43,621 nucleotides of DNA, taken from the NCBI GenBank assembly GCA_003576755.1, contig QEVT01000015.1, forward strand, positions 1-43,621, read 5' to 3'. Both the position numbers and the translations under genes were made by a program. Origin of the DNA: a bacterium (lineage in GTDB: Bacteria > Chloroflexota > Anaerolineae > Epilineales > Epilineaceae). Positions 13,569 through 43,621 of this stretch are shown in pieces. The notes beneath the pieces were generated by a model. It ran no database searches and was not told the origin of the DNA. It was given only the letters and a program-made list of their open reading frames with translations. Each line of letters begins with the position of its first letter. Position 1 is the first letter of the stretch.

Positions 13569-13670
13569 CGGGCCCGCGCGCGGGAGCCGCACGGGTGGGC
13601 TGCCTGGCGCCGCAAGGTGTCAGAGATCGTGCCGGTCCTCCCGGGCAGCATCCGTTGGCATCGCGGGCGG

Positions 13671-23450: not shown

Positions 23451-23790
23451 GGACGGACACGATAGCCACGCGGGGGTGGCGAGTCAACCCCGCGCGAGGA
23501 CGCGGCGACACCCGACGGCGCGCTGATTTTGCGACGACCAGTATCCTGGGGGCCGTTTTCTCGTTTTAAACATCCGGGCACTTAAGCGTCGCTTAATGTG
23601 TTCCGTTCGGCGGTTGCTGGGCAGCGGGGGTCACCCGCAGCCGCGATTGGCGATTTGGACGACACTGGACGCTCGAGTTGGTCGGAAGCGTGGCGCGGCA
23701 TGCTGCGCGCCGCCGCCGGTCATGACCAACAGCAGCCACGGACGCACGTGCCGGGGGCGTGGCGCGGCTCTGACGGCAGGGGGAAGCCAG
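23451..23790. other. Intergenic region upstream of the giant-protein operon
   Basis: This 340-base region lies between the divergent recG and the beta-helix gene. The stretch 23,525-23,600 is markedly AT-rich compared with its surroundings and contains a perfect palindrome at 23582-23596. The remainder (23,600-23,790) is GC-rich. The beta-helix frame is open back to 23596 but has no signal-peptide-like sequence there, so it is probably leader; an in-frame ATG at 23722 is a possible longer start. Confidence 0.5.
23582..23596. promoter_or_regulatory. Perfect 15-base palindrome, candidate operator
   Basis: TTAAGCG-T-CGCTTAA has 7-base arms and a one-base centre and lies in the AT-rich island about 195 bases before the proposed start of the giant-protein operon and 130 bases from recG. 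A well-defined operator for a dimeric regulator is the simplest reading. Confidence 0.45.
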
Positions 23791-26700: not shown

Positions 26701-29700
26701 GTGATCAGCAACTCGCTCGCCGGCAACGTCATCGTCGGCAACGCCGGCAACGGCGTGGCCATCCGCGGCGCGGGAGCGATGTTCAACACGCTGCGCGACA
26801 ACCTCATCGGCATCGTCGGGGACTACACGACCTCACCCCCCGACCTCCTGCCGCCGTCGCCGCCCGTGCCGCTGTCGTTCGTGGCGCTCGGCAACGCGGG
26901 GCACGGCGTCGTCGTCGAGGACGGTTCCAAGAACAGCATCGGCACGGTGGTCACGGCCACCACGGGCAGCAACGTGATCGCCGCGAGCGGGGGCCACGGC
27001 GTCCTCATCACCGGAACGCTGGCGACCAACAACCGCGTCATCGACAACCGGATCGGCGTCGACTACGACGGCGACGATCCGGTGGGGAACACGCTCGACG
27101 GCGTCCGCATCGAGCGGGTCGACGGCGTGACCGGCGACCCGGCCGTCGAGGGCACGATGGTCGAGGGCAACACCATCGGCGACAACGGCGGGTACGGGGT
27201 GGCGGTGGTCGGCGTGCTGGCGCGCGGCCACGTCATCGACGGCAACACCATCGGCACCAATGCGGCCGGGACGTCGGGTGTGACCAACACGCTCTCGGGC
27301 GTCCTTGTCGACGCCGGCAGCTTCAACGAGGTCACGGGCAACCTGATCTCGAGCAACGGCCTGCCGCCGAGCATCGGTCATGGGATCGAGGTCCGCGGCG
27401 CCACGGCCATGTCCAACACGCTGGCAGGCAACACCATCGGCACCAACCGCGCCGGGACGATGGCCTTGGCGAACGTCGGCAACGGCATCGACGTCGCCGG
27501 GGCCTCCAAGACGGCGATCTTCGGCAACCATGTCGCCGGGAACGGCGATCCGGTCTCGGGAGTCGGCGGCTTCGGCGTGCGGATCTCGGGAGCCTCCGCG
27601 ACCGGCAACGCGCTGCGCGGCAACTTCATCGGGGTCGACGTCGGCGCGAGCACTGCGATCTCGAACACCCGCAGCGGCATCCTGATCGACGGCGCGCCCG
27701 GCAACGCCGTCGGGATCGCGACCGGCAACGTGGCCGACGTCAACGTCATCTCCGGCAACGGCCTGCCGGCCTTCCCCGGCGACGGCCACGGCATCGAGAT
27801 CCGCGGGGCGGCGGCCACGGGCAACGTCGTCCAAGGCAACGTGATCGGCCTCAACTACGAGGGCTTCGGCAGCGTCATCGACACCCCGATCCCCAACCAG
27901 GGCAGCGGCGTGTACGTCAACGGCGCCCCCGGCAACACGTTGGGCGGGCTCGCGGACCTCGCGTACAACACCATCGGCGGCAACGGGGCGCACGGGGTCC
28001 ACATCGCCGGGGCCGGGGCGACCGGCAACGCCGTCCAGGGGAACACCATCGGCAGCGACCCATCGGGCACGGCGACCGGCCTCGGCAACACCGGCAGCGG
28101 CATCCTGGTCGACGGCGGCGCCTCCGGCAACTGCATCGGCGCCGAGCCCGGCTTCGCGCCGTGCCCGGCGCCTCCGGGCGAGTCGGGCTTCAACCGGATC
28201 GTGCTGAACGGCGCCGCCGGCATCACGGTCACGACCGGCACCGGGAACGCGATGGTCGGCAACGAGATCGCCGACAACGCCGAGCTCGGGATCGACCTCG
28301 GCAACGACGGCGTGACGGCCAACGACGGCGCCGGCGACGGCGACGGCGGGGCCAACAACCTCCAGAACTTCCCGGTGCTCACCAGCGCGCAGAGCCTCGG
28401 GGCGCCGTTCGATCCGCAGACGATGATCGCCGGCACGATCCCGAGCAGCGGCGGGCCGTTCAGGCTCGACTTCTACCGCAACACGGCGTGCGACCCGAGC
28501 GGCTTCGGCGAGGGGGCGGTCTTCATCGGCGCCGAGAACGGCCTGGCGGCGGGCCCGTTCATGGTCACGCTGAACCTCCAGGTGCCGGTCGGCGAGCTCA
28601 TCACCGCGACGGCGACCGACCCGAACGGCAACACGTCGGAGCTCTCGGCCTGCCTCGAGGTCGAGGAGAAGCCGACGCCGACGCCGACGTCGACCCCGAC
28701 CTACACCCCGACGCCGACGGCGACCAACACGTTCACGCCGCAGCCGACGCTGACGCCGTCGAACACGCCCACGCCCTATCCGCCGGACCCGACGGTCATC
28801 CTGGCGCCGATCGCCGACGCGCGCGTCCAGAACAGCAACCCGACCACCAACTACGGCACGTCCAACCAGCTCCGGGTGCGCGGTGGCACGACGACGTACA
28901 ACACCTACCTGCGCTTCGAGGTCGTCGACGTCCTCGGCCCGGTCTACCGCGCCCGGTTGCGGCTGTTCGCCTACGACGGCTCCAACCTCGGCGGATCGGT
29001 GTACACCACCGCCACCGACTGGGGCGAGGCCACGATCACGTGGAACAACGCGCCGGCGATCTCGGGCTCGCCGATCGACACGCGCGGCCCCGTGGCCAAC
29101 AACACCTGGGTGGAGTACGACGTGACCGCGGCCATCACCGGCAACGGACCGATCGGCTTCGCGATCAAGACGACGTCGACCAACTCGCTCTACTTCAACA
29201 GCAAGGAGGCGTCGGCCAACCGCCCCGAGCTCGTCATCGACTACCTCGGGCCATCGGCCACGCCGTCCCCGACCGGCACCGGTCCGACCGCCACGGGTCA
29301 GCCGACCGCCGGCGCGAGCGCGACGGCGACGCGCACGGCGACGGCGGTGCCGACGACCGCCGCCTCGGCGACGGCGACCCGGACGGCGACGGCGGCGGCG
29401 ACGGCGACGCCGGCCAGCGTCGTGGTGGTGACGCCCGTGCATGACGCCCGGGTCAAGAGCGACAGCCCGACCGGCAACTACGGCGCCGACGCCGTCCTTC
29501 GCCTGCGCGCGGGCACGCCGGCCTACCGCACGTACGTCAAGTTCACGGTGACCGGGCTGCAGGGCACGGTGCAACGCGCCACGCTCCGGCTGTACGCCAC
29601 CGACGGCGGCGACGACGGCGGGTCGGTGTACGCGGTCTCCAACACCTACGACGGGACGTCGAATCCGTGGCTCGAGAGCGGGCTCACGTGGGGCAACGCT

Positions 29701-30681
29701 CCCGCCATCGCCGGCTCGCCGCTGGCGACGATCGGCACGGTCGGCAACGGCCAGTGGGCGGCGTGGGACGTGACGGCGGCCGTGGCGGGCGACGGCACGT
29801 TCAGCTTCGGGCTGAGCACGGGCTCGACCAACAGCGTGTACTTCAACAGCAAGGAAGCGTCGTCGAACCGGCCCGAGCTCGTGATCGAGCTGGCGCCGGG
29901 CACGGCAGGGGCGACGCCCACGGCCGCCGCATCGTCGACGGCGGCGGCCACCCAGACCGCGGCCGCGTCTGCCACCACGGCGGCGACCGCGACGAGGACG
30001 AGCACCCCGACCAACGCCCCCACGCAGGCCGCGACGCCGACCCACACGGCGACCGCGGTCGCCACCCACACGGCGACCCGGACGCCGACGCCGGGGACCA
30101 CGCCGACGCCCGCAACGCTGGTGCTCGCGCCGGCGCACGACGGTCGCGTCAAGAGCGACAGCCCGACGACGAGCTACGGCACATCGAACTACCTCCGGCT
30201 CCGGTCGACCGGTCCGACGTACGACAGCTACCTCAAGTTCGAGGTGACGGGCGTGACGGGCCAGGTGCAGCAGGCGACCTTGCGGCTGTGGGCCTACGAC
30301 GGCGCCGACACGGGCGGCTCGGTCTATGCCGTCTCCAACGACTACCGCTCGACCTCGACGCCGTGGCTCGAAACCGGGCTGACGTGGGACAGCGCGCCCG
30401 CGATCTCGGGATCACCGCTCGACACCGTCGGCTCGGTGGCCAACAACGCGTGGGCGGAGTACGACGTGACGGCGGCCGTCTCCGGCAACGGCACGGTGTC
30501 GTTCGGTCTGCACACCTCGTCGACCAACAGCATCTACTTCAACGCACGCGAAGCGGCGACCAACCGCCCGCAGCTCGTCATCCAGGTCGGCGGCGGGGCG
30601 CCGCCGGACGCGGCCCGGGCGTCCAACCGCGGCCGCGCCGGACCGGACCGCTGGCGTCGCGTTCCCGGGAGGTCGGAATGA
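23791..30681 (+). CDS. Giant secreted CSLREA/beta-helix protein with three DNRLRE domains
   Basis: This 2,296-residue exported protein has several parts. Residues 1-28 are a signal peptide. A CSLREAI motif at 102 opens the first right-handed beta-helix (about 180-515, recurring GNGGDGVRI and NTVGGN turns), which closes with NDLQNFPEI. A beta-sandwich module follows (614-817; VWLSSNGWLAF, AVWDDLDA, FIAQWNDV). A second CSLREA-like motif (CTLRAAIDESNA, 837) opens a second, longer helix (910-1527) ending in NNLQNFPVL. Then come a Thr-Pro linker (1628-1669) and three DNRLRE domains (1670-1822, 1878-2037, 2110-2269) separated by Thr/Ala linkers, and a basic tail. DNRLRE domains are adhesion or carbohydrate-binding modules. 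GTG 23791 is chosen for its AGGGGGA ribosome site and the signal peptide. The stop overlaps the next ATG. Role: probably surface adhesin or fibre. Confidence 0.85.
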   Translation: MQLRFTTALGVAAACVISVLAALGVPAWQTTGSDDRGPSAPVGAPAAARQVGAGPRPFAPRPVDAAPRADLDATDALPITGATFTVNTTDDADDMTCDAAHCSLREAINAANATLATRDYVTFDITASLTVPYGGATPRHVITPTSALPLITGPVFIDGFSEPDYAGMAVVALNGAGLTADGLHFSAADGSVVQGLMVYGFDGHGLVFDTAGGSFILQNTVGTDVDGAASLANTGDGIRVVGVMSNTLGGNTVAGNGGAGVRISGAGANGNLLQNNAIGAAYQNGARPGNGGDGVAIIDAPGNTLDANTVGGNAGSGVLISGTLAVSNVVKANTIGSTVPVGLDGSFGADLPNGGAGVQITDAGANRVLGNTVTRSGGHGIAITGTLAVGNAVYGNRIGADDTVWPGGDLGNGGDGVRIEGGASDTCVGGSAGYPRCPGDASLPTSGNVIAFNGGDGVAVAAGTGNTVRFNAIYTNDGQAIDLDADGPTPNDAGDPDGGANDLQNFPEITRLSVNCTLTGTTELVIVLDAPAGLYDVDIYSNATGTFAYADGPEARHRIQSATVPAGTSTIPLPPADTENLSITATDANGNTSEVGFRLGALLEVNDDTDPLLDSYEFKDSNDLGGPTFAFVDISGTGIDVDAGDDTVTGTLPITFTFEHFAVPYTDVWLSSNGWLAFTDPAGDADPTNDCPLPNAAGVDGVIAAVWDDLDASVAGAGVFYQSFAAGACPYGAYPGACFIAQWNDVVHQGTSDDLTFEIILFDDHTFLIQILDAGNEAGSGSTTGTENATAMVAVNYGCDRSGAIADNLAIRFTPALLGDAATGDGLCEIVVGGGVCTLRAAIDESNALPGYDTITFDVLPAGKHTIAPTSTLTIVDPVTIDGTTQPPPNGTSLHPEPQIYLDGGGGVGDALRIESGSSTVRELGFVSYSGHGIHVVDRGCNSLVENVIGTMLPAMGGMGLGGDGIHIQGVISNSLAGNVIVGNAGNGVAIRGAGAMFNTLRDNLIGIVGDYTTSPPDLLPPSPPVPLSFVALGNAGHGVVVEDGSKNSIGTVVTATTGSNVIAASGGHGVLITGTLATNNRVIDNRIGVDYDGDDPVGNTLDGVRIERVDGVTGDPAVEGTMVEGNTIGDNGGYGVAVVGVLARGHVIDGNTIGTNAAGTSGVTNTLSGVLVDAGSFNEVTGNLISSNGLPPSIGHGIEVRGATAMSNTLAGNTIGTNRAGTMALANVGNGIDVAGASKTAIFGNHVAGNGDPVSGVGGFGVRISGASATGNALRGNFIGVDVGASTAISNTRSGILIDGAPGNAVGIATGNVADVNVISGNGLPAFPGDGHGIEIRGAAATGNVVQGNVIGLNYEGFGSVIDTPIPNQGSGVYVNGAPGNTLGGLADLAYNTIGGNGAHGVHIAGAGATGNAVQGNTIGSDPSGTATGLGNTGSGILVDGGASGNCIGAEPGFAPCPAPPGESGFNRIVLNGAAGITVTTGTGNAMVGNEIADNAELGIDLGNDGVTANDGAGDGDGGANNLQNFPVLTSAQSLGAPFDPQTMIAGTIPSSGGPFRLDFYRNTACDPSGFGEGAVFIGAENGLAAGPFMVTLNLQVPVGELITATATDPNGNTSELSACLEVEEKPTPTPTSTPTYTPTPTATNTFTPQPTLTPSNTPTPYPPDPTVILAPIADARVQNSNPTTNYGTSNQLRVRGGTTTYNTYLRFEVVDVLGPVYRARLRLFAYDGSNLGGSVYTTATDWGEATITWNNAPAISGSPIDTRGPVANNTWVEYDVTAAITGNGPIGFAIKTTSTNSLYFNSKEASANRPELVIDYLGPSATPSPTGTGPTATGQPTAGASATATRTATAVPTTAASATATRTATAAATATPASVVVVTPVHDARVKSDSPTGNYGADAVLRLRAGTPAYRTYVKFTVTGLQGTVQRATLRLYATDGGDDGGSVYAVSNTYDGTSNPWLESGLTWGNAPAIAGSPLATIGTVGNGQWAAWDVTAAVAGDGTFSFGLSTGSTNSVYFNSKEASSNRPELVIELAPGTAGATPTAAASSTAAATQTAAASATTAATATRTSTPTNAPTQAATPTHTATAVATHTATRTPTPGTTPTPATLVLAPAHDGRVKSDSPTTSYGTSNYLRLRSTGPTYDSYLKFEVTGVTGQVQQATLRLWAYDGADTGGSVYAVSNDYRSTSTPWLETGLTWDSAPAISGSPLDTVGSVANNAWAEYDVTAAVSGNGTVSFGLHTSSTNSIYFNAREAATNRPQLVIQVGGGAPPDAARASNRGRAGPDRWRRVPGRSE
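28798..30597 (+). repeat. Three tandem DNRLRE domains with Thr-rich linkers
   Basis: Three homologous units begin near 28798, 29422 and 30118. Each starts with a APxxDxRVxxxxPTxxYG pattern, has LRLxAxDG, W..APAI.GSP and YDVTAAxxGNG, and ends with SLYFNSKEA/SVYFNSKEA/SIYFNAREA then NRPELVI or NRPQLVI. Units 2 and 3 share more with each other (HDxRVKSDSPT, GGSVYAVSN, PWLE) than with unit 1, pointing to a later duplication. The linkers are ATRTATA-like. Confidence 0.85.
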
Positions 30682-32963
30682 TGCATCGTCCGCGCGGCGG
30701 TCGCGGCGGAAGGGCGACGGTGGCGGCCGCGTGGGCGATGCGGCTGGCCGTGGCGGTCGTGCTGGCATCGATCTTGAGGAACGCCGACGGCGCCCTGATC
30801 GAGCCGGTCCGGGCGCAGCCGTCGCCGCCGGACTTCAACAGCCTGCGCAACCGCGAGCTCGAGTGGGGGCAGTACGGCGACGACAACGAGGAGTTTCACC
30901 TCCCGCGCGGTGCCGACACGTCTTCGGTGGTGCGCTACTCCGAGTCGTTCTCGCAGCTCAATGCCCGGCCGTCGATGCCCGGACAGGGCGGGGGACTGCC
31001 GAGCACCGGCGGCGTGACCGGGGGCATGCTCCCTCCGGGTTGGGAGATCACCAACTGCGCGGTGTCGGTGTTCAACCAATGGCACCTCGAGCGGTCGCCG
31101 GCCAACATCCCGTGGCTGGCCACGACGCGCGGCACGATGCCGGACCCCGAGATGGAGCCCGAGCTGACGTTCATGACGGTGCCGGCGATGTGGTACGGCA
31201 CGACCCCGCTGGCCGACCCGCAGCCCGACATCCCGCCGCCGGAGGGTCCGGGCCCGACCCCGCCGTGCGACCGCCTGCTCGGCACCAAGTACCCGCCCAA
31301 GTACCCGATGGGCGACCTGTGCACGGCCGAAGGCGGCGGCCTGGTGCCGACGTGCGGCAACATCGTGTCGCCGCGCATCAGCTTGTTCGACGTGCCGACA
31401 CCGATCTCGTTGACGTTCACCAACCTCATCGACAAGATGCCCGGCATCCACGTGGCGCGGGTGGAGATCTCGGTCAACGGCAGCGAGTTCGTCGTCCTCA
31501 AGGACTACACCGCCATCGCGGGCGGGGGCCTCGGCACGCGTTCAGGCATCCCGCCGGTGTACCAGAAGGAAGAGATCGACCTCTCGGACTACGCCTACTC
31601 GGTGATCCAGCTGCGGTGGTTCTTCCTCAACAACAACCCGTTCATCTCGACCAACTTCTACGGCTGGGTGGTCGACAACATCGAGATCCGCGGCGGGATG
31701 GGCACACGGCGGCCCGGCATCGGCAAGCCGCCGGGCCCGCCGCCGCTCGCGCCGCCGTTCCCGCCCGATCCGCTCAAGGAGCACCTCGACTTCCGATGCC
31801 TCGGTGAGGTGCTCTTGCCGACGGGGATCCAGCCCCCGCTCGAGCAGCCGCGCATCTACATCGCCGACACCGGCAACCACCGGATCTCGGTGTTCCGCTA
31901 CAACCACGACCGGAACATCCCGGATCCGCAGCCCTGCAACGTGTCGCTGACGCCGCCGCGCAACTGGTTCGGCAGCTACGGCGACGACGACGAGCACCTC
32001 AACAGCCCGCACGACGTCGTGGTGGGGCCGGACGGCTACATCTACGTCGCCGACACCGGCAACCACCGCATCATGCGCTTCAAGCAGAGCGGCAAGCCGG
32101 CGCCGCACCTCGGATTGCACGGCGGTGGCGCGCTCAACGCCTATGGCAGCTACGGCGCCGGCACCGGCTTCGACGGCTCGCCGGAGTTCAACTCGCCCAA
32201 GGGCGTGGCAGCCAGCGGCTGGCACTACTTCAACGCCGGGTTGGGGCTCGTCGCGCGCTACTTCTACCTTTACGTCGCCGACACCGGCAACCACCGGATC
32301 CAGCGCCTCGCGATCGACAAGTTCGGCCGCCTGGTCAGCCTCGAATGGCGCGAGTTCGGCTCGTTCGGGGTGGGCGACGAGGAGTTCAACCAGCCGGTCG
32401 GCATCGACGTCAACCCCATCGACGCGCCCACCGTCCTGGCGCCGCCGCTCTTCCAGCTCCCGCTGGTCGGGAGGCCGATCCCGGCGTGGTCCGGCCGCGT
32501 CTACGTGGCCGACAGCACCAACCACCGGATCAAGGTCGCCGACCTCGACGGCAACTTCCAGACCACCGAGTCGTTCGGCCGCTACGGCGACGACTACCCC
32601 GACTTGACCAACGTCGTCGAGCTGCACTCGCCGCAGGACGTCGAGGTCGGGATCCGCCTCGAGAGCGTCAGCGGCACCGCCAGCCGGGAGGTCGACCTCT
32701 ACGTCGCCGACACCGGCAACCACCGGGTCTTCTACCTGATGTGCGGCGGGGTCACGCCGCCCCGCCCGTGCTCGACGCCGCTGACCGCGTTCACGGCCGT
32801 GTTCGGCCGCTACGGCGACGCGTTTGGCCTCTTCAACAGCCTCGCCGGCCTGGCCGCGGACCGCCTGCAGCCCGAGACGTACCCCGACAGCGTCGGGACC
32901 GGCAGCGACGTCTTCGTCATCGATACCGGCAACCACCGCGGGCAGAGGTTCGGGCATCCATGA
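30678..32963 (+). CDS. Secreted NHL six-blade propeller protein with inserted jelly-roll domain
   Basis: This 761-residue exported protein starts with a basic region and hydrophobic signal (LAVAVVLASIL, then a probable cleavage around VRAQ). The first mature strand, WGQYGDDNEEFHLP, has the form of an NHL blade end. A domain of about 300 residues (75-380) follows, ending in LRWFFLNNNPF and FYGWVVDNIEIRG, which resembles the jelly-roll of MAM/immune-inhibitor-A type proteins. From residue 393 come six NHL motifs: IYIADTGNHRISVF, IYVADTGNHRIMRF, LYVADTGNHRIQRL, VYVADSTNHRIKV, LYVADTGNHRVFYL and VFVIDTGNHRGQRF. GGGAGG lies 5 bases before the ATG, which overlaps the previous stop (ATGA); its own stop likewise overlaps a following in-frame ATG. 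No membrane anchor is visible. Binding role likely; ligand unknown. Confidence 0.82.
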   Translation: MMHRPRGGRGGRATVAAAWAMRLAVAVVLASILRNADGALIEPVRAQPSPPDFNSLRNRELEWGQYGDDNEEFHLPRGADTSSVVRYSESFSQLNARPSMPGQGGGLPSTGGVTGGMLPPGWEITNCAVSVFNQWHLERSPANIPWLATTRGTMPDPEMEPELTFMTVPAMWYGTTPLADPQPDIPPPEGPGPTPPCDRLLGTKYPPKYPMGDLCTAEGGGLVPTCGNIVSPRISLFDVPTPISLTFTNLIDKMPGIHVARVEISVNGSEFVVLKDYTAIAGGGLGTRSGIPPVYQKEEIDLSDYAYSVIQLRWFFLNNNPFISTNFYGWVVDNIEIRGGMGTRRPGIGKPPGPPPLAPPFPPDPLKEHLDFRCLGEVLLPTGIQPPLEQPRIYIADTGNHRISVFRYNHDRNIPDPQPCNVSLTPPRNWFGSYGDDDEHLNSPHDVVVGPDGYIYVADTGNHRIMRFKQSGKPAPHLGLHGGGALNAYGSYGAGTGFDGSPEFNSPKGVAASGWHYFNAGLGLVARYFYLYVADTGNHRIQRLAIDKFGRLVSLEWREFGSFGVGDEEFNQPVGIDVNPIDAPTVLAPPLFQLPLVGRPIPAWSGRVYVADSTNHRIKVADLDGNFQTTESFGRYGDDYPDLTNVVELHSPQDVEVGIRLESVSGTASREVDLYVADTGNHRVFYLMCGGVTPPRPCSTPLTAFTAVFGRYGDAFGLFNSLAGLAADRLQPETYPDSVGTGSDVFVIDTGNHRGQRFGHP

Positions 32964-33067: not shown

Positions 33068-36000
33068 ATGAACGACCACGCCCCCATCCACGCGACGCCC
33101 GCCCCGACCGCCGCCGCGGACGGCGCCGTGCCGGCGACGTGCAGAGCGCGCAGATGCTGGGGTCGGCGTTTGCGCCGAGCCGTGCTCGTCGCGTGCGTGG
33201 CCATGGCGTCGCTGCTGACCAGCCGCAGCGCGACCGTGCACGCCTTCGGCGACCTCAAGGTCGACATCGGTGGCGTCAGCCCCTCGGTTCCCAACAGCTG
33301 CCTGTCGTGCGCCGCCGTCCCGCCGACGCTGCCCGACCCGTTCCACCCCGACGACAAGATCATCGCGGGCGCGCAGACGCTCATCCCGCTGGTCTTGCCG
33401 GCCAACCGGTCGTCCGCCCAGAACCCCGAAGACGCCTTCATCGTGACGGTGCGCAACACCGACGTCAACGTCACGAACCCGCCGTCCGAGCCCGTGGTGT
33501 TCGAGTACCGCGCCCCGCAAGGCGTGACGATCACCGGCATGCAGATGAACGGCATCAACGCCAGCGGGCCGATCATCAACCTCCCGTGCGAGATCGGCAC
33601 CGAGCTCGACCCGCCGGAGCCGAGCACGTGCGAGATCGGCCAGCTCCCGCCGGCGGTGGGGGCGGTCACGATCCAGATCGAGTACTACGTCGACCGCGCC
33701 GTCCTCCGCGAGACGCTGCTCGACCACGACGTGCGGGCCTACCTGACGCCGATCGGCACCGATGCCAACGAGGCCGACAACCAGGACCATGCGTTCACGA
33801 GCGTCGAGACGCTGGCCGACCTGTCGGTGCTCAAGAGCGGCCCGAGCTGTCCGTTCCCGTTCTTCCCGAACAACATGAAGGCCGGCACGTGCGACATCTT
33901 CAAGCTGGCCGTCAAGAACAACGGCCCCTCGGTGGCGCGCCACGTGTTCGTCGGCGACAGCTTCCTCCTCGACCCGCGCGGCGGGCTGACGATCGAGGAG
34001 GCCCGGGTGGTCGAGACCGAGGGGACGAGCTGCAGCGTGCAGACCACGTTCGGCGAGAACACCGGCATGCTGTGCGACCTTGGCGACATCATCACCGGCG
34101 ACGTGCGCTACGTCGAGGTCAAGGTGTGCGCGTCGTCCGACATCCCCGACGGCAAGAACTTCCTCAACTTCACCGCGGTCGGCAGCGGCAGCCTGCCGCC
34201 GCCGCTCGGCATCAACCCGCTGATCCCGGCGGGCATCGTGCCGATCCTCGGCCTCGAGTTCCCGTTCACGCCCGAGCCGTGCCTGTCGCTGACCGGCGCG
34301 CTCAAGTGCCTCAACAACGTCAGCGTCCTGCCGATCACCGTCAACTCCGAGGCTGACCTCGACATCGAGAAGAGCGTCGAGCCCTCCAAGGTCAACGCCG
34401 GCGAGCAGAACAAGTACACCATCAAGGTCACGAACAACGGCCCGTCGGACGTGCTCAACCCGATCGTCAAGGACACGCTGCCGCAGGGCGTCGACTACGA
34501 GGTCGACGACGACACCTGTCTTGTGCGCGACCGCAACGCCGCGGGCCCCGACAAGTACGGCTACTTCACCGAGGACAGCGGCCGCGACCCGTTCCTGCGG
34601 CGCGACGGCCCGCAAGAGGGCCACGACATCGACAACGGCGACCCGCCGCCGCTGCCGCTGCCGTACGACGTGTCCGATCCCGGCGCGCCGTTCTTCGACA
34701 TCTCGACGACCGGCACCGCGATCGGCGCCTTCGCCGGCGGCCCCGACGACGGGTCGGCCAGCGTGCCCATCGGCTTCGACTTCACGTTCTACGACGAGGT
34801 GGTCAACAGCGTCTGGGTCAGCACCAACGGCTACCTCAAGTTCGGCACGGGCGGACCCGACACGACCGACCCCAACAACGATTGCCCGTTGACCGAGTCG
34901 ACGCCCAACCGCGCCATCTACGCGTTTTGGGACGACCTCGACGTGTCGACCGGCAGTGTGCGGTACCGCGTCGTCACCAACCCGCAGGACACGTCGCTCG
35001 ACGTCTTCATCGTGCAGTGGAACGACGCGACCGTGAAGAGCTCGGGCGATCAGATCTCGTTCCAGGTGCAGCTCTTCCAAGGCACCAACCAGGTCCGCAT
35101 CGTCTACGGCCCCGGCGTCGACGCCAGCGCCGCCGCCGGCGGCGCGTCGGCGACGGTGGGCATCGAGCCGCGCATGGAGCTCGCCGACGCGGGCGGCGGC
35201 GTGACCTTCGGCTGCGGCGACGATGCGAACCCGTCGGCGCCGTTCCTGGACGAGAACCAGGTGATCGCGTTCACCCCCGACCTGCCGGCGGGCGACGAGC
35301 TGATCTGCCGGGTCGGCGAGCGGGTCAAGCCCGGCAGCGTGCCGGCCTACATCGACGGGGCGTTCACCGGCTACCCGAACATGGGCTGCATCGCCGGGTT
35401 GCTCGACCTGAGCCTGCCCTTCGACAACTTCCAGGTCACCAACGACAAGATCTTCGCCTTCCGGGACGGCTCGACCGTAACGCACGTCATGAAGCCGGGG
35501 GAGATGCGCACGATCGAGGTTCAGGGGCTCGTCGACCCGTCGATCAAGCCGGGCACGCTCATCACCAACACGGCGGTCATCACCGGCTACACCACGCTCG
35601 GCGACCCGACGACGATGACGATGCCCGACAACTTCTACCCGTTCGGCGGCAACAACACGGGCGACACCAAGAACCTGGTGCTCCAGAAAGCCGACCTGCG
35701 GGTGACGAAGTTCGGCAAGCCCGACAGCGCCGTGCGTGCCGGCGAGGTGCTGACGTACACCATCGTCGTCGACAACTACGGCCCGAGCTGGGCCGACGAC
35801 GTCGCGATCAAGGACGTGCTGCAGGCGTCGAAGAACTTCGACCTCATCGACATCCACTCCGACCGCCGTGCGGTGTGCAACGGCCTGCCGGGCCCGCGCA
35901 ACGAGCTCATCCGCCCCAGCAAGTGGCCGCTCGACGAGCCGCCGCCGGCCTTCGGCGTCGACAACGACACCGGCGTCGAAGACATCAAGCAGCGCCTTGA

Positions 36001-39000
36001 GCTTGACTGCACGCTCGTCGACGACCCCGACACGCCCGAGGGCGACGAGATGGCGTCCGAAAACACGATGGAGAACCGCCTCGAGGTGCTGGCGGCGGAC
36101 GGCCCGCCCAACAGCGGCCGCTGGATCGTGACGCTGCGCGTCCGGGCGCGCGACACCCAGAGCATCAACAACGTCGTCGACGTCCTCAGCCCGGTGGCGG
36201 CCGACCCCGACCGCGCGAACAACCACGACGAGGTCGAGCACGAGATCACCGACGTGGCCGACCTCGAGATCAGCAAGACCGACTCCGGCGACCCGTTCGT
36301 GGCCGGCACCGAGTTCGAGTACTACATCGACGTCCACAACGACGGTCCGTCGGTGGCGCAGAACGTCGTCGTCGTCGACACGCTGCCGCTCGAGGTGTCG
36401 GTCGTCAGCATCTCGCAGCCCGGCGCGGGCTCGTGCGCGACGGTGCAGGGCACCGACGGCAACCTCCGGGTGCAGTGCAACCTCGGCAACATCGGCGCCG
36501 ACGAGGACGAGCGGATCACGATCCGCGTCAAGGCCGACCCCGACATCCCCGACGGCACCATCCTGTTCAACCAGGCCGTGGTGACCAGCGACATCTTCGA
36601 CCCGACCAACCACGACAACATCACGCGGGCGCGCTCCGTCATCATCGCCCGGGTCGACCTCGGCGTGACCAAGGTCGACGACCCCGACCCGGTCCTCGCC
36701 GGGCAGGTGCTCGAGTACCGCATCACCGCCGTCAACAAGGGGCCGTCCAACGCCCGGGACGTCGTGGTGCGCGATGCCCTGCCGGCCGACGTCACCTTCG
36801 TGTCGGCGAATGTGGTCAGCGGGCCCGGCGTGTGCCTGCCGGCCCCGATGGGCTACGTCACCTGTCAGCTCGGCAAGCTCGGCGTCGGCCAGGTCGTCGA
36901 GATCGCGGTCAAGGTGCGCGTGAACGAGGACGCCCCGTGCGGCACCGACATCGTCAACGACGTGACGATCGAGAGCACCACCGACGAGGTGTCGCCCGAC
37001 CCCACCGCCAACGCCGACCAGCGCCGGACCCGCGTCAACTGCGATGCCGTGCTCGCGATCACCAAGACCGTCTCGGACCAGACCCCGGTGGCGGGATCGG
37101 AGTACCGCTACACGATCGCGGTCACCAACAACGGCCCGTCACGGGCGCTCGACGTGCGCGTGACCGACGACCTCCCGTCCGACGTCGTGTACCGGCTCGA
37201 CACGTTCGGCTGCGGCGCGAGCCTCTTCGGCGCCGGCTGCGCCCTCGGCGACCTCGCGGTCGGCCAGACCGTCCGTTTCGACGTCATCGTCGCCCTGGAG
37301 GCCGACGCGACGTGCGGCACGACGCTGACGAACGTGGCCTCGGTGGACGCCGACAATGCCGCACGCGTCGACGCCGCCGCGGACATCGTCGTCGACTGCG
37401 CGTCCGACCTGTGGATCCGGAAGTTCGGCAAGCCCGACGACACCGTCCAGGCCGGCGAGGAGCTCACGTACTACGTCGCCGTCACCAACCTCGGGCCGAG
37501 CGACACCGTGCCGGGCGAGGTCTTCTTCCGCGACCTCCTGGCCTCGGATGGGTCGTTCACCGTCACGCGCATCGCCAGCGACCACGCTGCGACGTGCGAC
37601 CCCGACAACGGGCCGGCGTTCCCGCTGCCGTTCAACGGCGCGATCCAAGGCAACCAGGACCTCGAGATCGTCTGCACGCTGGCCGACGACCTCAACCCGA
37701 ACGCGCAGTGGATGGTCGAGATCGACGTGACGGCCGACCAGGCCCAGACGCTGAACAACACGGCCGACGTGTTCCACGCCCGATCGCTGGATCCCAACCG
37801 TGCCAACGACCATGCCGAGGTGGCGCATGCCATCACCGACGTGGCCGACCTGTCGATCGTCAAGAGCGACAGCGACGACCCGGTCACCGCTGGCACATCG
37901 TTCGACTACAACCTCAACATCGTCAACCACGGACCGTCGCCGGCAGAGAACGTCGTCGTCCGCGACACCCTCCCGCTCGGGCTGCGGGTGACCGGCCTGA
38001 GCAGCCCGGTGGGCGGGTCGTGCGGCCTCGACCAGCCTGCGGACGGCGCGGCCAGCGTGGTCTGTCGCCTGGGCGACCTCGACCCGAACGAGCAGCACAA
38101 CATCACCATCGAGGTCGAGGTTCCGGATTCCTTCGAGGACGGGAGCACGCTCTGGAACGCGGCCACCGTCGACAGCGACGTGCTCGACCCCGAGCGCGGC
38201 GACAACCTCGACCGCACCCGCACGCGGGTGGTGGCCGAGGCCGACCTCGAGGTGCAGAAGGTCGACGATCCCGACCCCGTGGTGGCCGGCGAGCGCCTGA
38301 CCTACCGTGTGAGCGTGGTCAACCACGGCCCGTCGCGGGCCCGCAACGTCGTCGTGACCGACGACGTGCCGGACGGCTTCAGGGTGACATCCGCGGCCGT
38401 GTTGACCGGCGACGGCGTGTGTCAGGCCTTGCCGGCCGGCTTCGTGACGTGCGACCTCGGGAGCCTGCCCGCCGGCGCGGGCCACCAGATCGTCGTCGAG
38501 GGCGTCGTCGACCCGGCCTTGGCCTGTGGGACCGCGCTGGTCAACACCGTGCGCGCCGGCAGCGACACCGCCGAGCCAGCACCCGACGTGTCGCCGAGCA
38601 CGGCCAGCCAGACGACGACCGTCGACTGCCGGGCGGTGCTCCGGGCCTCGAAGACGGCCTCGACCCGCACGCCGGCCGCCGGCACCGAGTTCGCTTACAC
38701 GCTGTCGGTGCACAACGCCGGCCCGTCGGTCGCGGCCGACGTCGTCGTGAAGGACATCCTGCCACCGTCGATGACCTACGTGCTCGACACCCGTGGCTGT
38801 GGCGTCGACCTCCTGGGCGTGGGCTGCGACCTCGGCGATCTGGCGCCTGGGCAAACGGTCACCTTCGACGTGGTCGTGCGCCTCGCGCCGGACGCTGGCT
38901 GTCGGACGGTGCTGACCAACACCATGCTGGTCACGTCGGCCACCGCCAGCAGCGTCGTCGCACGCGCCGACGTTGCGGTCGCCTGCGATGCCGACCTCCG

Positions 39001-42000
39001 GGTTCTCAAGTTCGGCAAGCCCGACAACATGGTTCGGGCGGGCGAGATCCTGTCGTACACCGTGGTCGTCGACAACCTTGGCCCGAGCTTCGCCGAGGGC
39101 GTCTTCATCAAGGACATCATGCAGTCGTCGGGAACGTTCACCGTCCTGAACATCACCTCGGACCGCGACGCGGCCTGCGTCACCGACCCCGCCGGCTGGG
39201 CCGACATCACCGGCCACCTCGAGATCGGGTGCACGCTCGACGACCCGCTCGGCGTGCTCGACGAGAACGGCTCGTTCCCGAACCCGGGGCGGTGGATCGT
39301 CAGCATGACCGTGATGGCGAACGAGGCGCAGAGCATCAACAACGTGGTCGACGCCGCCGCCAGGTTGGCGCATGACCCCGACCGGGGCAACAACCGCGCC
39401 GTCGTCGAGCACGCCATCACCGACGTGGCCGACCTGTCGATCACCAAGACGGACTACGACGCCGGCGAGCCGTTCAGCGCCGGCACGACCTTCACGTACG
39501 ACATCACGGTCAAGAACGACGGGCCGTCCGCTGCCGACAACGTCGTGGTGGTCGACACGCTGCCGATCGGCCTGGACATCGTGGATCTCGCGGACGGTTG
39601 TGCCGCGACGACGCTGCCGACCGGCGCCCGCAAGGTCACCTGCAACCTCGGCACGCTGGACCCGGGCGCCGAGCCGGTGATCACGCTCGAAGTGCGGGTG
39701 GCACCCGATGTCGCCGACGGCACGGTCCTGTGGAACCGGGCCATCGTGTACAGCGACGTGTTCGATCCCGACAATCGCGACAACATCGCGCAGACGCCGT
39801 CGCGCATCGGCGCCGTGGCCGACCTCGAGGTCACCAAGGTCGACGATCCCGACCCGGTGACGGCAGGGGCGCAGCTGCAGTATCAGATCAGGGTGACGAA
39901 CCACGGCCCGTCGCTGGCGCGCGACGTCGTGCTGACGGATGACATGCCCGCCGGGGTGACGGTGGTGTCGGTGGTGCCGCTCGGCGGCCACGGCACGTGC
40001 CAGCCGCTGCCGATCGGGCACGCCACGTGCCACTTCGACACGCTGGCGCCGGGCGCGAGCGAGACCGTCGTGGTCGTTGCCGAGGTCTCTCCGGCGGCAG
40101 CGTGCGGGGTGGACCTCGTCAACGTCGTCTCCGCCGCCAGCGCGTCCGCCGAGCCGCAGGCCGATCCGCACCCGAACACGGCCAGCGCCGTGACGAGCGT
40201 GGTGTGCCGCGGACGCCTGGTCGCCGCCAAGGTGGCCTCGACCTACACTCCGGTGGCCGGCGGTGACCTGGTATACACCCTCTCGGTTCGCAACCTCGGC
40301 CCGTCGGTCGCCCGCTCGGTGACGGTGACCGATACGCTGCCGGCCGGGATGACGTACGTGTTCGACACGCGCGGGTGCGGGGCCGACCTGTTCGGCGCCG
40401 GCTGTGCGCTGGGCGACCTCGCTCCGGGCGACGCGGTCGCATTCGACGTCGTGGTCCACGTGGCCCCGGATGCGGCGTGCGGCGCCGTGGTGACCAACGT
40501 GGCGCGCTTCACGTCTGCCACGGCGGACCCGGTGACGGTCGCGGCCGACACGCGGGTGGACTGTGCCGCCGATCTGCGCGTGCTGAAGTTCGGCAAGCCC
40601 GACGGCGCCGCGCGCGCCGGCGAGGTGCTGACGTACACCGTCGTCGTCGACAACCTCGGCCCGAGCTACGCGCCAGGCGTGGCGATCAAGGACGTGCTGC
40701 GTGCCAGCGGTGGCTTCGACGTGCTGTCGATCAGCAGCGACCGCGATCACACGTGCCTGGCGGATCCGGTGGCCACCGGTGGGGGCGGCCCGCTGGACCC
40801 GTGGCTGCCCAACGCCATCGGGGCCGTCAACATCGACTGCACGCTCGACGAGCCCTTGGGAGTCCTGCGCGCCGACGGCTTCCCGAACCCCGGACGGTGG
40901 ACGCTGACGATGACGGTCCGCGCGCGCGAGGGCCAGAGCATCAACAACGTGGCCGACGCGACGTCGGCCGCCGCCGACCCCGACGCGTCCAACAACCGCG
41001 CGCGGGTCGAGCACGCCGTCACCGACGTGGCGGACCTCGAGATCGCGAAGACCGACAGCGGCGGGCCGTTCCGGGCAGGCACGGCGTTCGAGTACCGCAT
41101 CGCGGTCGCCAACCGTGGCCCGTCGACGGCCGAGAACGTCGTCGTGGTCGATACCTTGCCCCTCGGCCTCAGCGTGGTCGACATCGCCGAGCCGGTCCCG
41201 GGCTCGTGCAGCGCGGTGCAGGAGGTGACCGAGAACGTCGTGGTCACCTGCAACCTCGGCACGCTGGCCGACGGCGACGAGCGCGACATCACGATCACCG
41301 TCCGCAGCGCGCCGAACGTGGCCGACGGGACCGTCTTCTGGAACCAGGCGATCGTCGTCAGCGACATGTTCGACCCCGACAACCAGGACAACGTGTCGCG
41401 GGTGCGCTCGACGATCGTCGGTGAAGCCGATCTCGGGGTGACGAAGTCCGACACGCCGGACCCGGTCACGGCCGGCCAGACGGTCGAGTATCGGATCGTG
41501 GTCACGAACTACGGCCCGTCGACCGCGCGCGACGTCGTCGTCAGCGACGACCTGCCCGACGGGGTTGCCGCGGTGTCGGCGGTGACGCTCAGCGGGCGCG
41601 GCATCTGCCAGGCTCAGCCGGCCGGCTTCGTCACGTGCCACTTCGACGGCCTGGCGCCCGACGGCAGCGAGGAGATCGTGGTCACCGGCATGGTCGACCC
41701 GGCCGCGAGCTGCGCGACCAGCCTCGTCAACCGGGTGACCGTGTCGAGCACGACCGCCGAGCCGGCCGTCGATCCGCATGGGAACAGCGCGGCGACGACG
41801 ACGGACGTCGCATGCCGTGCCGAGCTCGAGCTTTCGAAGGTGGCCGCGACGTACGCCCCGGTGGCCGGTGGCGACCTGATCTACGCGCTCACCGTGCGCA
41901 ACCGCGGGCCGTCGGTGGCCCGTGCCGTGGTGCTCGACGACACGCTGCCGGCCGGCATGAGCTACGTGCTGGACAGCCACGGCTGCGGCCCCAACCTGGT

Positions 42001-42796
42001 TGGCGCGGGCTGCGCCTTGGGCGACATGGCGCCCGGCGCGGTGATCCGCGTGGAGGTCCTGGTGCGCATCGCCGCGGACGTCACCTGCGGCACCGTGCTG
42101 CGCAACGTCGCCGAGGCGCGGTCCACGACCGCCGCGCCGGTGTCCGACGTCGCCGATACCCTGATCAAGTGTGAGAGCGACCTCCGCGTCGTCAAGATCG
42201 CCAAGCCCGACGGTGACGTGTCGGCCGGCAAGGTGCTGGAGTACACGATCACGGTCGACAACTTGGGGCCGAGCGTGGCGCCCGGCGTGGCCATCCACGA
42301 CCTCCTGCAGTCCAGCGGCACGTTCGACGTCCTGTCCGTCGCGAGCAACCGGCCGGCGACGTGCGGCTCGCTGCCCGATGCCGACGGCGGCGACCCGTTC
42401 GCCCCGACCGGCGGTGCCGTCACGGGGGTCGACCGGCGCTACCAGCTCGACTGCACGCTCGACGAACCGCTCGGGGTGCTGGCGGCCGACGGCCCGCCGG
42501 ATACCGGGCGGTGGATCCTCACGGTCACGGTCACGGCCGACGCGAGCCAGGATCTCAACAACGTCGCCTCGGTGCAGACCGGGCAGGCGACGGATCCCGA
42601 TGCATCCAACAACCAGTCGCCGGTCGTCCAGCGGCGCTTCGTCGACGTGGCGAACCTGTCGATCAGCAAGACCGACCTGCCGGACTGCGACCCGGGCGAC
42701 GCCTGGCCGGGCAACTTCTGCGACATGATGGGCAACGGCGACACCGTGGCCAGATCGAGAACGAGGGCCCGAGCGAGGCATCCAACGTGGTGGTGA
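33068..42796 (+). CDS. Giant DUF11-repeat surface protein, interrupted by a frame break
   Basis: The frame encodes 3,242 residues up to a stop at 42796. A basic leader and hydrophobic segment (about 38-58, AVLVACVAMASLL) direct export. Two DUF11-like repeats start near residues 251 and 430. A beta-sandwich module (531-738; VWVSTNGYLKFG, AFWDDLDV, FIVQWNDA) is embedded in the second. From residue 875 the chain is a string of DUF11 repeats of four subtypes in fixed order. DUF11 repeats are Ig-like beta-sandwiches of surface proteins. The ATG at 33068 has GAGGA eight bases upstream; an in-frame ATG at 32960 overlaps the previous stop as ATGA and is the alternative. After about 42,748 the homology moves to the -1 frame, so the last 15 residues before the stop are not genuine. 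Confidence 0.8.
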   Translation: MNDHAPIHATPAPTAAADGAVPATCRARRCWGRRLRRAVLVACVAMASLLTSRSATVHAFGDLKVDIGGVSPSVPNSCLSCAAVPPTLPDPFHPDDKIIAGAQTLIPLVLPANRSSAQNPEDAFIVTVRNTDVNVTNPPSEPVVFEYRAPQGVTITGMQMNGINASGPIINLPCEIGTELDPPEPSTCEIGQLPPAVGAVTIQIEYYVDRAVLRETLLDHDVRAYLTPIGTDANEADNQDHAFTSVETLADLSVLKSGPSCPFPFFPNNMKAGTCDIFKLAVKNNGPSVARHVFVGDSFLLDPRGGLTIEEARVVETEGTSCSVQTTFGENTGMLCDLGDIITGDVRYVEVKVCASSDIPDGKNFLNFTAVGSGSLPPPLGINPLIPAGIVPILGLEFPFTPEPCLSLTGALKCLNNVSVLPITVNSEADLDIEKSVEPSKVNAGEQNKYTIKVTNNGPSDVLNPIVKDTLPQGVDYEVDDDTCLVRDRNAAGPDKYGYFTEDSGRDPFLRRDGPQEGHDIDNGDPPPLPLPYDVSDPGAPFFDISTTGTAIGAFAGGPDDGSASVPIGFDFTFYDEVVNSVWVSTNGYLKFGTGGPDTTDPNNDCPLTESTPNRAIYAFWDDLDVSTGSVRYRVVTNPQDTSLDVFIVQWNDATVKSSGDQISFQVQLFQGTNQVRIVYGPGVDASAAAGGASATVGIEPRMELADAGGGVTFGCGDDANPSAPFLDENQVIAFTPDLPAGDELICRVGERVKPGSVPAYIDGAFTGYPNMGCIAGLLDLSLPFDNFQVTNDKIFAFRDGSTVTHVMKPGEMRTIEVQGLVDPSIKPGTLITNTAVITGYTTLGDPTTMTMPDNFYPFGGNNTGDTKNLVLQKADLRVTKFGKPDSAVRAGEVLTYTIVVDNYGPSWADDVAIKDVLQASKNFDLIDIHSDRRAVCNGLPGPRNELIRPSKWPLDEPPPAFGVDNDTGVEDIKQRLELDCTLVDDPDTPEGDEMASENTMENRLEVLAADGPPNSGRWIVTLRVRARDTQSINNVVDVLSPVAADPDRANNHDEVEHEITDVADLEISKTDSGDPFVAGTEFEYYIDVHNDGPSVAQNVVVVDTLPLEVSVVSISQPGAGSCATVQGTDGNLRVQCNLGNIGADEDERITIRVKADPDIPDGTILFNQAVVTSDIFDPTNHDNITRARSVIIARVDLGVTKVDDPDPVLAGQVLEYRITAVNKGPSNARDVVVRDALPADVTFVSANVVSGPGVCLPAPMGYVTCQLGKLGVGQVVEIAVKVRVNEDAPCGTDIVNDVTIESTTDEVSPDPTANADQRRTRVNCDAVLAITKTVSDQTPVAGSEYRYTIAVTNNGPSRALDVRVTDDLPSDVVYRLDTFGCGASLFGAGCALGDLAVGQTVRFDVIVALEADATCGTTLTNVASVDADNAARVDAAADIVVDCASDLWIRKFGKPDDTVQAGEELTYYVAVTNLGPSDTVPGEVFFRDLLASDGSFTVTRIASDHAATCDPDNGPAFPLPFNGAIQGNQDLEIVCTLADDLNPNAQWMVEIDVTADQAQTLNNTADVFHARSLDPNRANDHAEVAHAITDVADLSIVKSDSDDPVTAGTSFDYNLNIVNHGPSPAENVVVRDTLPLGLRVTGLSSPVGGSCGLDQPADGAASVVCRLGDLDPNEQHNITIEVEVPDSFEDGSTLWNAATVDSDVLDPERGDNLDRTRTRVVAEADLEVQKVDDPDPVVAGERLTYRVSVVNHGPSRARNVVVTDDVPDGFRVTSAAVLTGDGVCQALPAGFVTCDLGSLPAGAGHQIVVEGVVDPALACGTALVNTVRAGSDTAEPAPDVSPSTASQTTTVDCRAVLRASKTASTRTPAAGTEFAYTLSVHNAGPSVAADVVVKDILPPSMTYVLDTRGCGVDLLGVGCDLGDLAPGQTVTFDVVVRLAPDAGCRTVLTNTMLVTSATASSVVARADVAVACDADLRVLKFGKPDNMVRAGEILSYTVVVDNLGPSFAEGVFIKDIMQSSGTFTVLNITSDRDAACVTDPAGWADITGHLEIGCTLDDPLGVLDENGSFPNPGRWIVSMTVMANEAQSINNVVDAAARLAHDPDRGNNRAVVEHAITDVADLSITKTDYDAGEPFSAGTTFTYDITVKNDGPSAADNVVVVDTLPIGLDIVDLADGCAATTLPTGARKVTCNLGTLDPGAEPVITLEVRVAPDVADGTVLWNRAIVYSDVFDPDNRDNIAQTPSRIGAVADLEVTKVDDPDPVTAGAQLQYQIRVTNHGPSLARDVVLTDDMPAGVTVVSVVPLGGHGTCQPLPIGHATCHFDTLAPGASETVVVVAEVSPAAACGVDLVNVVSAASASAEPQADPHPNTASAVTSVVCRGRLVAAKVASTYTPVAGGDLVYTLSVRNLGPSVARSVTVTDTLPAGMTYVFDTRGCGADLFGAGCALGDLAPGDAVAFDVVVHVAPDAACGAVVTNVARFTSATADPVTVAADTRVDCAADLRVLKFGKPDGAARAGEVLTYTVVVDNLGPSYAPGVAIKDVLRASGGFDVLSISSDRDHTCLADPVATGGGGPLDPWLPNAIGAVNIDCTLDEPLGVLRADGFPNPGRWTLTMTVRAREGQSINNVADATSAAADPDASNNRARVEHAVTDVADLEIAKTDSGGPFRAGTAFEYRIAVANRGPSTAENVVVVDTLPLGLSVVDIAEPVPGSCSAVQEVTENVVVTCNLGTLADGDERDITITVRSAPNVADGTVFWNQAIVVSDMFDPDNQDNVSRVRSTIVGEADLGVTKSDTPDPVTAGQTVEYRIVVTNYGPSTARDVVVSDDLPDGVAAVSAVTLSGRGICQAQPAGFVTCHFDGLAPDGSEEIVVTGMVDPAASCATSLVNRVTVSSTTAEPAVDPHGNSAATTTDVACRAELELSKVAATYAPVAGGDLIYALTVRNRGPSVARAVVLDDTLPAGMSYVLDSHGCGPNLVGAGCALGDMAPGAVIRVEVLVRIAADVTCGTVLRNVAEARSTTAAPVSDVADTLIKCESDLRVVKIAKPDGDVSAGKVLEYTITVDNLGPSVAPGVAIHDLLQSSGTFDVLSVASNRPATCGSLPDADGGDPFAPTGGAVTGVDRRYQLDCTLDEPLGVLAADGPPDTGRWILTVTVTADASQDLNNVASVQTGQATDPDASNNQSPVVQRRFVDVANLSISKTDLPDCDPGDAWPGNFCDMMGNGDTVARSRTRARARHPTWW
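35690..42175 (+). repeat. Four copies of a four-domain DUF11 super-repeat, about 1.6 kb period
   Basis: Type A units (DLRVxKFGKPD, AGExLxYTVVVDNxGPS, then CTLDxPLG) begin near 35690, 37403, 38990 and 40568, with a fifth at 42176. Type B (ADLxIxKTDSG, VVVVDTLPLGL, then CNLGTL) begin near 36257, 37844, 39428, 41030 and 42650. Type C (ADLxVTKVDDPDPV) begin near 36653, 38240, 39818, 41426 and, in the shifted frame, 43078. Type D (KxASxxTPVAG, GCGxxLxGxGCxLGDL) fall between C and the next A. Spacings are 1713, 1587, 1578 and 1608 bases between A units, all multiples of three. The DNA copies are diverged, so this is old, selected architecture rather than assembly collapse. Confidence 0.85.
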
Positions 42797-43621
42797 CCGA
42801 CAACCTGCCGAAGGAGGTCGAGGTCACGCGCATCCGCAAGGAGCCCGACCAGGGGGCGTGCTCGACGGTGCAGGGCGCCCAGGGCCAGCAGGTCGTCACG
42901 TGCAACCTCGGCACCGTCGCCGAGGGCGACAAGGTGCGGATCGACATCTACGCGCGGGTGCCGTCGGACGTGCCGCACGGGACGATCCTGTGGAACGAGG
43001 CGTGGGTGACGGGCGACGCCGTGGAGCCCGACAACGACGACAACCGGACGCGGGCGCGGACGGACGTCATCGCGGTGGCGGACGTCGGGATCACCAAGGC
43101 CGACGACCCGGACCCGGCGTTCGCGGCCGGCGGCGAGGCGACGTACACGCTGAACGTGATGAACCACGGGCCGAGCGTGTCGCGCGACGTCGTGGTGGTG
43201 GACGACCTGCCGACGGGGATCGACGGGACGAGCGTCGACGTGATCGGCGTGACCGACGAGCGCTGCTCGATCGGACCGGTGCCGGGGTCGTCGACGGGCC
43301 GGGAGCGCGTGACGTGCGAGCTCGGGGACCTCGAGGTCGGGGACCGACGGACGATCCTGGTGCGGGTGAAGGTGGCCGAGGACATCGTGCCGGCCAACGA
43401 CGCAAACCAGTGCGTGGGCACCCGGAACGCGGCGAAGGTGTCGGCGGCGACGAAGGATCCGGACGACGACAACAACGAAGCCGTCGAGTCGCAGGACGTG
43501 TGCGCGACGGCGGACCTGAAGCTGACGAAGACGAGCGAGCCGGAGAAGGTCAACGCCGGGGAGCAGAAGCGGTACCACATCGAGGTCGAGAACCTGGGGC
43601 CGGCGGACGCGACGGGCGTGA
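42751..43621 (+). CDS. Continuation of the DUF11 protein in another frame, open to the right edge
   Basis: From 42751 the frame reads QIENEGPSEASNVVVTDNLP and continues without a stop for 290 codons to the window end. It completes the fifth B repeat (CNLGTVAEGDKVRI), then a C repeat from 43078 (VADVGITKADDPDPA), then a unit beginning KTSEPEKVNAGEQKRYH. The last resembles the earlier DUF11 unit with SVEPSKVNAGEQNKYT near residue 433 of the upstream part. There is no start codon or ribosome site at the junction, so this is not an independent gene but the rest of the same protein, separated by a frame break. Codon choice here looks shifted to G-ending codons (ACG, GCG, GTG, GGG). Confidence 0.75.

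Follow-up and report, generated by a model that had tools for sequence, protein, structure and literature searches.

The locus considered here raises a double question: is the DUF11 protein encoded at the end of this contig an ordinary string of similar domains or an array built from an ordered block of distinct subtypes, and, in the second case, what does it form and why is the order kept? The window, i.e., the whole stretch of 43,621 nucleotides that was analysed, is contig C38 of a genome assembly of 4.41 Mb (489 contigs, 81.67% complete). The original prediction was that four subtypes, A, B, C and D, recur in a fixed order with a period of about 530 residues, four times in full and a fifth in part. 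Our reading, to which we give a probability of roughly 0.7, is that this array forms a cross-linked stalk, grown by the copying of four-domain blocks, in a giant secreted surface protein of the fibrillar-adhesin type from Ardenticatenales/Anaerolineae (Chloroflexota).

The gene is longer than the range 35690-43621 that had been proposed for it. One frame of the + strand runs from an ATG at 33068, the inferred start codon (an earlier ATG at 32960 is possible), until 42796, and a signal peptide (by eye) and ~870 residues precede A1. The second of the two DUF11 domains found in this N-terminal part is apparently split by an insert of ~200 residues, for which no match was found in Pfam. Near 42745 (42720-42790), within B5, the reading frame changes, and B5 and C5 run on in another frame to the contig end. 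A codon-position check showed third-position G rising to 0.54 past this point, which is suggestive rather than decisive; the change may be an assembly error or a real indel. The features of the gene, all on the + strand, are the following.

33068..33244, +, start of the DUF11 gene with a Sec-type signal peptide (RRLRRAVLVACVAMASLLTSRSATVHA), by eye
33815..35689, +, two DUF11 domains on the N-terminal side of the super-repeat
35690..36256, +, A1
36257..36652, +, B1
36653..37042, +, C1
37043..37402, +, D1
37403..37843, +, A2
37844..38239, +, B2
38240..38629, +, C2
38630..38989, +, D2
38990..39427, +, A3, first domain of the block modelled by AlphaFold
39428..39817, +, B3, in the AlphaFold block
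39818..40207, +, C3, in the AlphaFold block; aligns with the CLIPPER structure 9IFR
40208..40567, +, D3, in the AlphaFold block
40568..41029, +, A4
41030..41425, +, B4
41426..41815, +, C4
41816..42175, +, D4
42176..42649, +, A5
42650..43077, +, B5, with the frame change near 42745 inside
43078..43509, +, C5, in the second frame
43510..43621, +, beginning of one more DUF11 domain, truncated where the contig stops

As the contig stops there, the window gene is seen without its C-terminal end. Two other contigs of the same genome, C362 and C105, were considered as carriers of the 3' end of the gene, but not one 15-mer is common to them and the final 300 bases of the window, so that no link between them and the window gene is claimed. 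The first 99 bases of these two contigs (L154:1-99; minus-strand start of L155) are identical and lie inside the ends of giant genes that carry the C-terminal module described below. This shared segment suggests that the window's genome has paralogous giant genes and that its assembly broke at them.

Pfam recognizes PF01345 (DUF11) in 18 stretches of the window protein (915.7 bits for a curated cut-off of 24.6, E 1e-281), and all of the repeat domains are DUF11, with no mixed Ig/FnIII composition as in titin. Four full A-B-C-D blocks occupy 35690-42175 and are followed by A5, B5 and C5; the last domain (43510..43621) resembles the N-terminal DUF11 domain at 34352 more than D. Counted in the protein starting at 33068, A1 to A5 begin at residues 875, 1446, 1975, 2501 and 3037, i.e., at spacings of 571, 529, 526 and 536, in agreement with the period of ~530 residues that had been put forward. 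The domain map and these spacings bear out the four subtypes, their fixed order and the number of blocks.

One alternative would be an ordinary DUF11 string in which the subtypes are an illusion created by duplication of neighbours, and many of the other long DUF11 proteins compared are indeed most alike at lag 1. A repeat phylogeny in which neighbours group together, rather than subtypes across blocks, had been set beforehand as the refuting outcome. In the tree of the 19 window domains, A, B and D each form one clade (support 100, 99 and 99) and C1-C4 cluster at 90; C5 is unresolved, and a tree holding all C domains together is not rejected (p 0.24). On the other hand, trees that keep block 1, 2, 3 or 4 together are all rejected (p 8.6e-36, 7.6e-4, 4.3e-74 and 1.9e-46, respectively). 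The most alike pairs of domains are found at lag 4 (50% identity versus 35-37% at lags 1-3 and 5-7), and, against permuted domain orders, lag 4 stands out with z 7.9 and lag 8 with z 4.7, every other lag being negative. The A-B-C-D order in the window protein is thus confirmed. With block clades rejected at p 7.6e-4 or lower and a period of four found in five proteins (see below), the probability left to an ordinary string is negligible.

How the array differs from other DUF11 proteins can be seen from a comparison set that was gathered with a block query and is not a random sample. In this set, neighbouring domains are 34-38% identical in five super-repeat proteins, whereas 43 other DUF11 proteins average 44%, and the largest neighbour identity is 42-52%, versus a mean of 58% in the others. 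Other unit lengths also occur: a DUF11 protein from Acidimicrobiales (L082:5828-20815, +) repeats every three domains (z 8.9 at lag 3 and 6.5 at lag 6), and one from Chloroflexi (L098:1-15816, +) repeats a block of 20 domains (z 8.7 at lag 20). In the papers searched for DUF11 in Ardenticatenales/Chloroflexi and for bacterial super-repeats, no description of the four-domain architecture was found, and one elsewhere is possible.

Relatives sharing the order were located by a search with window block 3. Two of them come from genomes of the same family, G001 (JADYYS01, Ardenticatenales bacterium SJ541) and G002 (JAJCYU01, Anaerolineae bacterium OFTM155). Contig 65 of G001 carries a frame of 5410 residues with a partial block followed by seven full ones. 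Contig 209 of G002 carries a frame that is 11,555 residues or longer, as it reaches the contig end, and encodes 18 full blocks and a partial one. Further copies exist in the relatives, for example one with five blocks on contig 44 of G002. As profiles built from the window alone label B, C and D of the relatives poorly, each position was assigned by counting on from A, and the assignment was checked with a tree. Successive A domains of contig 209 are four apart in 18 of 18 steps, and the 75-domain tree labelled by phase requires three changes, which is the minimum. Later phase profiles were trained on the same proteins, so that independent evidence from them comes only from L054 and other untrained loci. 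L054, from another family of the same class (Chloroflexi bacterium S1bins96, G118), shows an A spacing of four domains four times (z 7.1). Over the five super-repeat proteins, z at lag 4 is 7.9, 10.6, 11.1, 9.2 and 7.1.

The tree of the 161 domains from these five proteins, encoded by four genomes, contains 7 changes of position label where 89 would arise by chance; all 41 A domains fall into a single clade (support 100). These data show that the four subtypes predate the split of the compared genera and families. They also strongly support the proposal that the duplicated unit was a four-domain block, both in the window and in relatives from other genera and one other family. The number of blocks changed by lineage, with a fifth begun in the window and 7 and 18 full ones in the relatives. 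At E 1e-15, the A profile matched 28 of the class's 396 genomes, in several cases weakly; among 400 genomes sampled from the phylum, a single one that does not belong to the class was matched (86 bits). Certain relatives have just one or two A-B cassettes, or other spacings.

Does the order need a function of its own to persist? A block might have been copied once, after which unequal crossing-over between copies four domains apart would maintain the period; the period would be self-maintaining because recombination needs similarity. The copies four domains apart are indeed the most alike in the window protein (50% versus 35-37%). Moreover, the blocks cluster by protein, as lineage-specific copying or gene conversion would produce: the four window blocks, whose identity to block 3 is 52-61%, fall together in a separate clade (support 100), a pattern that fits separate multiplication in the window's lineage, or gene conversion. 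The units of three and 20 domains that arose in L082 and L098 also speak for a process of this kind. However, not a single gain or loss of one domain is seen in 36 consecutive A-to-A steps of the five proteins, despite divergence to 35-40% identity, and the subtypes remain distinct across genera. An order without function is thus a serious candidate, to which we would give somewhat less than even odds.

The array of contig 209 of G002 has a second level of organization. Its block tree contains the clades 5/8/11/14, 6/9/12/15 and 7/10/13/16 (support 100, 99 and 100), lag 12 has z 20.6, and block identity at a block lag of three is 50.6% versus 42.7% expected, a value reached in none of 20,000 block permutations. 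Therefore, blocks 5-16 consist of four copies of a three-block, 12-domain unit, which shows that this array grew partly by the copying of that unit.

Such nesting could instead reflect a functional register as in titin, in which each A-B-C-D period, or the 12-domain period of the relative, would dock onto a single repeat of a partner, for instance an S-layer, a sheath or a matrix polymer. Titin super-repeats of 7 and 11 domains provide a precedent (PMC10665226), and the register is strict in arrays as long as 18 full blocks plus part of another. Once in every block there is also a cysteine loop of 8-43 residues, in A, and a variable loop near the N-terminus of B. Yet these loops differ between blocks, unlike a conserved docking site, no partner is known and the nested unit is found in one protein only; we therefore regard a register of this kind as unlikely. 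Harder still to credit is that the protein would be a counterpart of titin in both architecture and role, a hierarchical fibre of 4-/12-domain units serving as ruler or scaffold, every period of which would engage a single repeat in a surface lattice or matrix.

Whatever maintains the order, the composition of the domains bears on the nature of the stalk. DUF11 has been renamed CLIPPER after a crystal structure (9IFR) in which an isopeptide bond involves Lys 715, Asp 748 and Asn 806 (PMC12617251). In 32 blocks, i.e., 128 domains, the lysine is present in 128, the aspartate in 126 (2 Glu) and the asparagine in 122 (3 Asp, 3 other). The triad is also present in 78% of 684 other DUF11 domains; being general to DUF11, it therefore does not explain the A-B-C-D order. 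Cysteine pairs had been placed chiefly in D and the end of B, which proved wrong: a pair occupies the equivalent place of each domain (254 of 256 positions in the 32 blocks), and in the window, C and D have a second pair, giving exactly 2, 2, 4 and 4 cysteines in A, B, C and D in all four full blocks. The suggestion of regularly spaced disulfides was right in spirit, but the pairs are denser than claimed and not confined to B and D. The common pair is found in 89% of all domains of the five super-repeat proteins versus 50% of other DUF11 domains, and none of the aligned related proteins has the second pair seen in C and D of the window. Each domain thus retains the Lys-Asp-Asn triad, which forms isopeptide bonds in DUF11, and at least one cysteine pair; isopeptide bonds and disulfides are predicted here from these residues.

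The junctions between domains are also regular. The asparagine of B and the lysine of C are separated by 34 residues in 32 of 32 blocks, and the spacing from the last conserved core residue of a domain to the lysine of the next one hardly varies at the A-B and B-C junctions. Tandem Ig-like domains span ~4-5 nm per domain. The chain would be a stiff rod of roughly that length per domain, since the core-to-core spacing is nearly constant. An AlphaFold model of block 38990-40567 (pLDDT 93.7, pTM 0.73) is compatible with an extended rod, of which a block might, as had been suggested, be one turn or one binding period. In this model, which is not an experimental structure, domain C superimposes on 9IFR with Z 15.3 and an rmsd of 2.5 over 120 residues, and the Ig domains of the integrin alpha leg rank first among the closest solved folds; the predicted fold of the window domains is thus Ig-like, of the E-set/CnaA-like type. 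A PDB search with the block profile gave weak integrin alpha matches, and a PDB sequence search with domain B alone gave no meaningful match.

Taken as a whole, the preferred reading, a self-cross-linked and block-copied stalk, can be drawn as follows. The stalk is a chain of DUF11/CLIPPER domains in fixed A-B-C-D order, for which the model indicates an Ig-like E-set fold. Each domain would lock itself covalently, and unequal recombination between the most alike copies, four domains apart, would lengthen the rod by whole blocks. Unlike domains placed side by side might also lower mispairing or misfolding of self-cross-linking neighbours, as has been proposed for tandem Ig-like domains (PMC4660218); as a reason for the order, such protection rests on analogy with that work. 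Recombination mechanics, avoidance of misfolding and a partner period as in titin are the candidate reasons for the order.

The window protein shows some features of a fibrillar adhesin, namely great length, a signal peptide (by eye) and a repetitive stalk. No adhesive or anchoring domain was recognised in it by Pfam, and most predicted fibrillar adhesins are without a known adhesive domain (PMC9210967). At the ends of related giant genes lies a conserved segment of ~275 residues that is 69-79% identical between genera, compared with ~40% for the repeats, and that has 17-18 matches in each family member, on many proteins. This C-terminal module of the relatives has no Pfam match and no evident LPxTG motif or membrane segment, and its AlphaFold model (pLDDT 39.6) is unusable. 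It probably attaches or exports the protein and may be a candidate sorting or anchoring domain. It was seen at L051, L052, L056, L057, L059, L142, L154 and L155.

The neighbour gene at 23596-30681 (+) encodes another large surface-type protein with a CSLREA start, right-handed beta-helix regions and three CBM96/DNRLRE domains, and an NHL-repeat protein is encoded directly upstream of the DUF11 gene (30678-32963, +). The same stretch also encodes a TMEM260-like protein O-mannosyltransferase (10239-13592, -).

Among known systems, the closest are the DUF11/CLIPPER stalks of fibrillar adhesins (PF01345; 9IFR), with which the window protein shares the domain, the Ig-like E-set fold, the triad, the signal peptide and a tandem stalk in a long secreted protein (PMC12617251). 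It differs from them by its four strictly ordered subtypes and whole-block expansion, to which one relative adds a 12-domain unit. An alternation of DUF11 and DUF7507 has been noted, and the available part of that report describes no longer ordered block (PMC12617251). The giant adhesin of Mobiluncus mulieris is likewise a giant bacterial protein (7651 residues), with 51 Ig-like domains and intramolecular cross-links in each; it is, however, another protein from an unrelated bacterium, and no ordered block is mentioned in the abstract of its description (PMC10619420). In the periscope proteins Sgo_0707 and SasG (PMC8201768, PMC9210967), the number of repeats sets the length of the stalk, as it may here, but those repeats are highly identical and vary between strains, whereas the window blocks are 52-61% identical, short of the high identity that characterizes periscope repeats, and block counts differ between genera.

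In the A-band super-repeats of titin, as in the window protein, a domain resembles its counterparts in the blocks before and after more than it resembles the domains beside it, and blocks were duplicated recursively (PMC10665226). Titin, however, combines Ig and FnIII domains, works inside muscle cells and has units of 7 and 11 domains with known thick-filament partners, whereas the window system is made of one bacterial domain family, is extracellular and probably self-cross-linked, and has no known partner. The likeness is architectural only, and the window protein is not to be filed as a relative of titin. Nested super-repeats, from domain to four-domain block to twelve-domain block, are best known from titin, and a case from the bacterial surface, made of one probably self-cross-linking domain, provides an independent case for weighing partner period, misfolding protection and recombination mechanics against each other. 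As the number of blocks varies widely between related genera, the question can be addressed by comparison.
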